Of a DNA stretch of 33,592 bases, positions 8,326 through 33,592 are shown one piece after another. Source of the DNA: Acidobacteriota bacterium (GTDB taxonomy: Bacteria; Acidobacteriota; Terriglobia; Acidiferrales; UBA7541); the NCBI GenBank assembly GCA_003224145.1, contig QHYN01000219.1, forward strand, positions 1 to 33,592. The letters run 5' to 3'. The notes beneath the pieces are model-generated. The model was given only the letters and a program-made list of their open reading frames with translations, was not told where the DNA came from and made no database searches. The translations under genes were made by a program, and so were the position numbers. Numbering within the stretch: position 1 is the stretch's first letter; every line of letters begins with the position of its first letter.

Positions 8326-8478
8326 TGCCTTTCGCTAGCCTCTTATCCCTGTTTCTATAAGCACGATTCTCCGCTTCAATTCCTCCTTTGTTTTCTTCAT
8401 CTTTCATCTTTCAACCTTAAACTTTTGACCTTCAACTTCCTTTTCCCCTAACTCCTTTCCCCTCACCCACTTAAAATT

Positions 8479-8517
8479 AGTATTTACAAGTATCGTATAA
8501 GTATGGTAATATAGTAT
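8479..8517 (+). promoter_or_regulatory. AT-rich promoter-like segment with four phased AGTAT repeats
   Basis: AGTAT occurs at 8479, 8489, 8500 and 8513, that is at steps of 10, 11 and 13 bases, close to one helical turn. The same segment holds a promoter-like pair TTTACA (8483-8488) and TAATAT (8507-8512) with an 18-base spacer. It is a sharp AT-rich island in GC-rich DNA. It would drive the small Cys/His gene beginning at 8749 through a leader of more than 200 bases. The repeats could be operator half-sites; this is inference. Confidence 0.45.
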
Positions 8518-8748
8518 GTGATAGTTAGGGACCACGTCATTCCCCCGCCGCAATCCTCTATACTTCCGTCCCCGCCCTTCACGGCCTCCTAAGTCCTGTC
8601 AAATCATATCGTTTGCAGACCCCCACTCTCTAACTCTTTTGGAATCATTTCGTTTCAAAAGCAGGGGGAGGGGGCAGGGGCTTTTTCCTTACGTCTTTAC
8701 TTCCTTTCTTCGTCACGTTGTTACTTCAATCTTCCGAAAGGCTAATCC
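8518..8748 (+). other. Long untranslated leader before the frameshifted small gene
   Basis: No coding potential is seen. It holds a near-direct repeat, AATCATATCGTTT (8602-8614) and AATCATTTCGTTT (8643-8655). The second copy lies in a hairpin with CTTTTG/CAAAAG arms (about 8636-8661). A G-rich run (about 8663-8680) and a short T-run follow. This might be an attenuator-like or structured leader. Confidence 0.35.
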
Positions 8749-9248
8749 ATGTCCCCAAAACAACACACCGATCGCCAGTGCCAATACCAGAACGCCCGCG
8801 GCCAGCGCTGCCACATGCTGATCGACGAGCATCGCCACGGCGAACAGCGCCAATCGCCCGCGCTCTGCACCTACCATGCCGACGTCTCAAGACGGCCGTT
8901 ATCGATCCCGAAGCCCTTGCCGCCGACCTTCTCGCCGACATCGACAGCTTCACTACCGCGGATGAGGTCAATCTCTTCCTCGGCAATCTAGTCAAACAGC
9001 TCGCTCGCAAGCGCATCGCCCGTCGTGACGCCATCGCTCTCGCCTATATCTCGCAACTCATTCTCACCAGCCAAACCGCCATGGCGAGGGAAGCGGCAGC
9101 CGAGATGGAAGCCGTGAAACAAGCGGAGCACGTTCGCCTCATCGCCCGCCTTGGCCAAGGGAGCCGCGACCTTGCATCACTCGGCAATCAACAATCAACC
9201 GGCGCCGCACCGGAGCACCGCAATGACGATCCGCAGCGTCCCGCGTAG
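8749..9248 (+). pseudogene. Small Cys/His-motif protein, interrupted by a frameshift
   Basis: The N-terminal part reads MSPKQHTDRQCQYQ, then RGQRCHMLIDEHRHG and LCTYHAD, with a Cys/His pattern (C..C, H..., C..YH) that looks zinc-binding. Close to 8880-8890 the reading frame changes by minus one. The continuation is LKTAVIDPEALAADLLADI followed by a helical region (VNLFLGNLVKQLARKRIARR, then DAIALAYISQLIL) ending at 9248. Together they make one protein of about 165 residues, so either a single base has been lost or the sequence has an error. A related C-terminal region is encoded at the right edge of the window. I recall the family as multi-copy in Acidobacteriota; its function is unknown. Confidence 0.65.
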
Positions 9249-33244: not shown

Positions 33245-33592
33245 TCACGAAGACTCCTTGGTATTGGTGGTGTTGGGGGTCTCGCCGTTGTTGGGGACCG
33301 ATTGAGAGCTCATGCGCTTGTACAAGGCGCGTTCGGGGTCCTCGGGCCAGTCGCGCTTGGGGCGAGGCAGATCCATGATGATTTCCTGCGGCGCGTCGTT
33401 TGGCGGATGGACCTCCTTGTCGATGGCGGGGAGGGTGCGAAGGAGCAGGTTACAGGTGTAGGCCATGACAGCGGCACGGCGCGGGGGGATGCGATCCTGC
33501 GCCTGGAAAAGGAGAAGACGGGAGAGGAAGTCGTTGATAGGGACCGCGGACTTGAATTCAGTGAGACCGGCGATGAGCTCGGCGGAGAGATT
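33245..33592 (-). CDS. Small Cys/His-family protein, C-terminal part (5' end outside window)
   Basis: The 115 visible residues begin NLSAELIAGLTEFKSAVPIN, then DFLSRLLLFQAQDRIPPRRA and AVMAYTCNLLLRTLP, and end in a polar, Asn/Thr/Ser-rich tail. This region lines up with the C-terminal half of the frameshifted gene at 8749-9248: ADLLADIDSFTTADEVNLFL against AELIAGLTEFKSAVPINDFL, then RKRIARRDAIALAYISQLIL against QDRIPPRRAAVMAYTCNLLL. Its N-terminal Cys/His part would lie beyond the window. Role unknown; the two genes are in opposite orientation. Confidence 0.6.
   Translation of the reverse strand, partial: NLSAELIAGLTEFKSAVPINDFLSRLLLFQAQDRIPPRRAAVMAYTCNLLLRTLPAIDKEVHPPNDAPQEIIMDLPRPKRDWPEDPERALYKRMSSQSVPNNGETPNTTNTKESS

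Follow-up and report, generated by a model that had tools for sequence, protein, structure and literature searches.

A lineage-expanded family of small CCCH proteins and its association with a dispersed promoter-element unit in soil Acidobacteria

Results

A gene cut by the contig edge and a broken relative

The window, by which we mean the whole stretch of 33,592 nucleotides that was analysed, is the entire contig C201 (QHYN01000219.1) of an Acidobacteriota assembly of 4.79 Mb in 359 contigs. At its right edge, positions 33245-33592 of the minus strand hold 115 open codons that run up to the contig end and read NLSAELIAGLTEFKSAVPINDFLSRLLLFQAQDRIPPRRAAVMAYTCNLLLRTLPAIDKEV...KESS followed by a stop. 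A second, broken member of the same family lies on the plus strand further left, behind upstream sequence that recurs at many other loci. The features are as follows.

33245-33592, minus strand: C-terminal 115 amino acids of a CCCH-family gene, truncated at the contig end; stop codon at 33245-33247
33392-33592, minus strand: predicted helical core, homologous to 8916-9110 (plus strand) by alignment, with helices placed by analogy with the model of a relative
8749-9248, plus strand: second family member, broken, with zinc part and core in different frames (profile matches and frames)
8779-8877, plus strand: CCCH motif of the left member, C-x9-C-x18-C-x2-H, read from the translation and from family conservation
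8627-8675, plus strand: full upstream element, 73 nt before the ATG (model R1, 28.7 bits, E 3.6e-8)
8587-8613, plus strand: partial tandem element copy, 40 bp further upstream (R1 7.8 bits, E 0.16, weak alone)
8483-8512, plus strand: promoter-like TTTACA-18-TAATAT, read by eye
8449-8478, plus strand: third element-like copy, TAACTCCTTTCCCCTCACCCACTTAAAATT, directly before the -35-like box, seen by eye and not reported by R1 at E <= 5

A preliminary description of this DNA had proposed that the helical core of 8749-9248 recurs at the right edge in the opposite orientation and that the two genes are divergent members of one family, and both proposals are borne out. A profile of 25 relatives, four of them from the window's genome and none of them a window piece, gives the right copy 120.0 bits, the left core (8889-9245) 87.8 bits and the left zinc part (8749-8889) 26.8 bits, against a top score of 11.2 bits in 4000 shuffles of the two cores. 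A single-sequence search of the whole genome aligns the right core with 8916-9110 at 32% identity over 65 amino acids (E 5.1e-4). By these comparisons the right copy and the broken gene are homologous and clearly different in sequence.

The closest paralogue of the right copy, on contig C65, is 91% identical in DNA over 245 bp, with dN 0.044 and dS 0.275 over 84 codons (dN/dS about 0.16). Its upstream DNA scores 15.2 bits with a trained matrix of the element described below, and by eye it contains two degenerate element copies. The right copy comprises core and tail only, so that what we say of its zinc motif and promoter rests on its relatives.

The relatives of the left gene that occupy the same place in two other genomes (G012 and G048) have one open frame in the matched part. 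Upstream of the left gene, the full element is itself one of the 22 copies from which R1 was built, and the 40-bp spacing of the partial copy is that seen at other loci. The promoter-like layout at 8483-8512 matches, by eye, that of the G012 relative (TTGACA..GGTAATAT). The third element-like copy precedes the -35-like box and therefore lies outside the predicted transcript. Pyrimidine-rich 8-bp repeats of the TTACCTCN type can be seen by eye at 8677-8735 and in the leaders of three other loci (L071, L078 and L063); such repeats sit between promoter and gene in several units.

Fold and database searches

A structural model of one full-length relative, built from an alignment of 25 sequences, has a mean pLDDT of 80, with residues 31-110 averaging at least 90, and predicts helices at 47-67, 76-91 and 97-121, C-terminal of the zinc knuckle. 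The best Foldseek and VIA-align matches are helical bundles such as ribosomal protein bS20; as Z is at most 7.5 and E at least 0.3 in both libraries, we read them as a common arrangement of helices and set them aside.

The nearest described domain is PF09329, the zf-primase finger of Mcm10 and primases, which matches 7 of 47 family members at E <= 0.01 (best 6.7e-5, 23.0 bits). None of the 47 reaches its gathering cut-off of 28.8 bits; the left zinc part scores 17.1 bits, and the right copy, in which the zinc part is missing, has no match. A search of PDB sequences gives the zinc part a likewise sub-threshold likeness to MCM10 (7y01, E 0.027). The CCCH pattern is alike in PF09329 and in our family, but the likeness is limited to the knuckle, and the helical core of the family falls outside the match.

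No model in Pfam, NCBIfam, PHROG, PADLOC or Rfam describes the family. PHROG matches none of the 47 members at E <= 0.01, and two weak single-member matches, to Aga_Helical-REase in PADLOC (E 0.0079) and to PilW in NCBIfam (E 0.0081), were taken as chance. Among listings and abstracts of the literature, we found no account of the CCCH family or of the element of about 40 bp, and for a tie between Mcm10, the plant WRC domain and bacterial CCCH fingers only a plant genome-editing paper came up. The preliminary statement that the family has no known function thus holds for the searches made.

The same description had offered part of a mobile cassette as one identity for these genes, and our searches do not bear it out. 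No transposase family matches any of the 47 members (Pfam, E <= 0.01), plasmid and phage collections returned nothing for the one member used as query, and none of the 24 pattern matches that an alignment gave in viral contigs was confirmed. The positions of the genes do turn over, yet one slot is common to three or four genomes, as described below.

Distribution and constraint of the family

The family is lineage-expanded, as had been suggested from the two copies in the window. A six-row profile, with rows all from the window's genome (G000) and two of them the window pieces themselves, finds 13 matches in 12 places in that genome, several of them at or near contig ends. Matches occur in 21 of 41 genomes (the window's own and 40 relatives). 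The genus contributes 19 of 25, with 1 to 13 matches each, and the rest of the order two of six, as against none of 10 genomes from other orders of the class. In a wider draw from the phylum, in which 12 candidates were scored per genome so that counts are lower bounds, matches occur in 22 of 297 genomes; 17 of these belong to a single other family of the class and contain at least 1-3 each. Four matches lie outside the class. Two of these, L183 and L185, look by eye like antitoxins of the VapB type, and a third, L168, seems to belong to a different CCCH family. The three were excluded from the element count in the distant family given below and are still within the 22 of 297. L168, from genome G345 in another family of the phylum, is a CCCH protein of different build that has an HDPER motif and a weak likeness to phrog_3678 (E 0.0016). 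Named genomes, when scanned, yielded 31 loci, and every record concerned is titled Acidobacteria, Terriglobia or Candidatus Acidiferrum MAGs, in several cases with the label gp2.

The preliminary description had also proposed zinc binding and, as a check, a look for conserved Cys and His residues. In complete members the three C columns and the H column vary little or not at all in our alignments, which supports zinc binding by the family; the right copy itself is cut before the motif. Across 16 pairs of orthologues or paralogues dN/dS is 0.11-0.56, indicating purifying selection, and the members look like real, constrained proteins. They are small, undescribed proteins, most of them bearing the zinc motif, of which soil Acidobacteria carry several copies.

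Some copies depart from the common form. Two loci of the window's genome, L020 on C160 and L023 on C237, hold what is left of family genes: in one an internal deletion runs through the zinc part, and the other retains just a C-terminal tail that ends TNTKESP. The members of genome G003 (L076 and L078-L084) have long, proline-rich, poorly conserved C-terminal extensions and an element subtype of their own. Two contig ends of the window's genome, on C58 (L143) and C65 (L018), carry the same family-gene start and element and are probably one locus split by the assembler.

A tandem element before the genes

Shared upstream sequence, the second check proposed at the outset, is present in the form of an element and a promoter, and is our main result. 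Many family genes have in common an upstream motif near TAACYCCTTTGTTTNNCACTCTTACRAAAANNCCGGGGGTGTACCCC. With a matrix trained on 52 upstream stretches, 25 of the 52 score above 12 bits, as against 4 of 143 controls, and others show the motif by eye. Run on 30 named loci, R1, a sequence model made from 22 element copies, gives 34 matches, without exception on the gene strand. For 21 loci the gene (or its match) is preceded, at a distance of up to about 120 nt, by an element match at E <= 0.05; three of the nine remaining loci (L188, L207 and L216) contain little upstream sequence. Thirteen of the 21 loci lie outside the R1 training set. Four of these come from G003, like several training loci, which leaves nine that neither served for R1 nor are near copies, from one and the same genome, of loci that did (L187, L189, L190, L196, L198, L199, L204, L205 and L210).

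The element is commonly tandem: of the neighbouring pairs of half-elements, 7 of 10 upstream of genes and 11 of 30 at other loci have a spacing of 39-41 bp. RNAalifold predicts no pairs in the 22 element copies, so we treat the element as a sequence motif. A sigma-70-like promoter pattern precedes family genes in 33 of 50 cases (reverse strand, 5 of 50), and TTCGAA occurs within the 110 nt before the -35 box in 21 of 33 genes and in 12 of 24 of the gene-less units described below (L143 left out), against 3.2% of random windows. One subfamily (L063, L089, L062, L088 and L090) has a TTTTCCACARCC.ATTCGAA-like sequence before its promoter, which we take to be close to a DnaA box.

A similar element also occurs in the distant family of the class. 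There a strict pattern, TAAC or TAAG followed by a run of G and another run rich in G or C, precedes 7 of 16 members. The corresponding figures are 0 of 16 for the reverse strand, none downstream and 2.1% for random windows; the pattern was written after these sequences had been viewed. Applied to genus members, a regular expression made for this distant family fits 3 of 51 (reverse strand, 2 of 51), and because so few fit it is no general description of the element. A fixed short element pattern was set aside as well: it finds 28 sites in the window's genome against 3 for the reversed control, stays near background in most genomes, and so describes some species only. Upstream of L043 and L045, from genomes in another family of the same order, stands a different repeat, CCGCAAAAACCGCAAAAACCG-like.

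Element and protein vary together. Among 34 members the distance between proteins correlates with the distance between their elements (r 0.34, p 5e-4), and the correlation is stronger within genomes (r 0.64, 51 pairs, p 5e-4) than between them (r 0.23, 510 pairs, p 0.0015). Co-inheritance of a duplicated unit would by itself explain this match, since duplication copies upstream DNA along with the gene. It is conceivable, then, that the proteins do something unrelated, for example in stress or housekeeping, and that promoter and element are merely inherited with each duplication. We regard this as improbable. Neither the many gene-less copies of the element and their correlation with gene number, to which we turn now, nor a similar element before members of the distant family is readily explained in this way.

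Element units that lack the gene

The element is far more widespread than the gene. At E <= 0.01, R1 matches the window's genome at 86 or more places, counted among the 150 of 1006 candidates that were scored, and matches occur in 29 of 36 genus genomes. Numbers of gene and element matches rise together over 25 genomes (Spearman rho 0.74, p 2e-5), with rho 0.76 in the 17 genomes that are at least 90% complete and 0.71 when the window's genome is left out; these coefficients ignore kinship between genomes. Genome size has no clear correlation with gene or element number (rho -0.20 and -0.01). The pairing has exceptions: G010 has no family match and 15 elements, and G002 has four family matches and no element.

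From the better element matches that lie away from recognised family genes we took 40 loci, with 41 arrays. One array, L143, precedes the family-gene start at a contig end and was left out of the gene-less counts, leaving 40 arrays. A reading of these as dead genes was rejected, as none of the 40 downstream stretches (up to 700 nt) matches the family profile at E <= 1, and at loci L126-L165 no frame matches the family at E <= 0.01. A signal for a regulon was likewise rejected: of the nearest predicted genes on the 3' side, 20 share the strand of the array and 16 lie on the opposite strand, with no gene found for 4 arrays, and given this lack of strand preference the arrays do not look like the regulon of neighbouring genes. 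The neighbours include cysteine- and Fe-S-related genes, named by eye as IscS-, CysK-, CysS- and GlcF-like, and looked suggestive. At one locus of the window's genome (L128, contig C122, 7000-12500) two gene-less arrays share the same 150 nt upstream and stand about 1.9 kb apart on one strand. Near them lies an ISXO2/IS1595-like transposase frame, a 60-aa piece that matches PF12762 at E 1.2e-4 and 22.6 bits against a cut-off of 27.

The gene-less arrays resemble the gene units in what precedes them. In the window's genome, 20 of 29 arrays have a TTGAC promoter pattern in the 520 nt upstream, against 1 of 29 on the reverse strand; the signal is weaker in three other genomes (4 of 11, reverse strand 1 of 11). 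At the other end, the 3' part of the gene-less units resembles, by eye, the leader just before the start codon of the gene units. Since 20 of 29 keep the promoter pattern, the gene-less repeats of the window's genome may not be plain debris.

Promoters of this kind would be expected if the gene-less units were small non-coding RNA genes and the protein an RNA-binding partner of their transcripts and of its own leader. A slot shared by genomes G007 and G009, in which the element keeps its place and orientation while the surrounding DNA has diverged, would fit such a view. It sits poorly with an element that has no predicted consensus structure, and with the copy that precedes the -35 box in the window and so would not be transcribed. 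Rfam adds nothing in its favour for the loci tried: a scan at gathering thresholds over the window and seven loci found tRNA only, and one at E <= 0.05 over six loci found no match. An RNA partnership of this sort therefore seems to us quite unlikely.

Turnover at shared slots

Comparison of corresponding intergenic slots shows how gene and element come and go. Beside the slot just mentioned, in which both G007 and G009 have an element in the same orientation, there is another in which G007 has a gene unit and G009, with flanks 92-93% identical and no family match, has an element on the opposite strand (seen by eye).

Both window copies adjoin genes that allow such comparison. The right-edge copy adjoins a DUF5996 gene (PF19459) that is found in 23 of 36 genus genomes, and only in the window's genome (1 of 23 loci) does a family gene stand beside it. 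In G024, with a DUF5996 protein 85% identical, the same slot holds a gene-less element in the same orientation (28.1 bits), about 45 nt after the DUF5996 match; in G017 it holds a weaker element (18.1 bits) on the other strand. The left copy adjoins an AMP-binding enzyme found in 35 of 36 genus genomes. Among 30 fetched loci of this enzyme, three have family gene and element together, with the gene broken in the window's genome and free of stops within the match in G012 and G048. In a further genome, G005, the AMP-binding and family matches are 215 bp apart by coordinates, which makes the slot common to three or four genomes.

It is possible that the promoter-leader unit is a dispersed repeat comparable to a MITE that sometimes carries the gene, with the gene-less copies as its non-autonomous form and the protein either helping it to spread or travelling as a passenger. 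The excess of element matches over the 12 family places of the window's genome, the contigs that end at or near several copies, and the likeness between gene-less 3' ends and gene leaders all agree with such a repeat. So do the exchange of a gene unit for an opposite-strand, gene-less element between G007 and G009, and the single family gene beside DUF5996 whose slot in G024 holds an element in the same orientation. What argues the other way is that the 47 members include no transposase family, that the evidence presented here for the unit includes neither defined ends nor target duplications, and that one slot is common to three or four genomes. Moreover, none of the 40 gene-less stretches has a coding remnant, yet most of those in the window's genome keep their promoter pattern, which would be unusual for passive debris. 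We rank this reading first among the rivals, ahead of the RNA partnership and then passive co-duplication, and still consider it doubtful.

Discussion

The protein family described here is lineage-expanded and under constraint, its CCCH residues are conserved, and its genes are associated, in a fixed orientation, with a dispersed promoter-element unit. Multicopy genes that stand behind the same promoter and element, with the element also scattered in gene-less form, probably point to a small DNA- or RNA-binding regulator. Our preferred reading, to which we give a probability of roughly 45%, is that the family members are small nucleic-acid-binding regulators that act on the elements.

Under this regulator reading, the right-edge frame would be one copy of a protein whose N-terminal CCCH zinc knuckle is followed by a core of three helices. 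The gene would form the last part of a stereotyped unit present in many copies: promoter, leader, one or more tandem elements of about 40 bp, ribosome-binding site and gene. The putative promoter often has CATTCGAA boxes before its -35, and the elements end in a G-run. The protein may bind zinc and the element, most likely the element as DNA. We favour DNA because an element-like copy precedes the -35 box of the left unit in the window and because the element has no predicted RNA structure. By binding the element the protein would control its own unit, and the scattered gene-less units may serve as further targets or as decoys. Against regulation stand the uninformative fold searches, the lack of strand preference among gene-less arrays, the weaker promoter pattern in other genomes, the genomes that break the pairing of gene and element, the many members that have no recognised element, and the sufficiency of co-inheritance as a source of the match between element and protein.

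A wider form of the regulator reading is that there is a class-wide regulatory network in which one tandem element links multicopy zinc-knuckle proteins with gene-less units that have promoters and that, where a genome has most copies, run to tens, the gene-less units being non-coding transcripts or binding arrays read by the proteins, and the whole set expanding and shrinking together. This larger proposal we hold to be unlikely, about on a level with the MITE-like repeat.

Several known systems resemble parts of this arrangement. The WRC domain of plant growth-regulating factors has a C3H pattern within a nucleic-acid-binding motif, with a spacing similar to that of the knuckle. REP elements pair with RAYT (TnpA-REP) proteins, a dispersed intergenic repeat with a protein family and far more repeats than genes. 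The repeat outnumbers the gene here too (at least 86 matches to 12 places), but the 47 family members contain no HUH (Y1) or other transposase family, and the repeat differs as well, being a tandem of about 40 bp, confined to one flank of the gene, with a constant orientation and a promoter. The CcsR or cuckoo small RNA families are likewise multicopy, with repeated pyrimidine-rich motifs and a small protein gene alongside. Our units share that general layout with them; they differ in that they are known from DNA alone and have no predicted structure.

In summary, across species of the Acidobacteria the numbers of a small protein family go up and down with those of a dispersed promoter-element unit; these are common soil bacteria, with gene families for the most part unread. 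If the protein binds the element, this would be an autoregulated multicopy regulator with genome-wide decoy or RNA units, or else a partnership of repeat and protein that does without a transposase.
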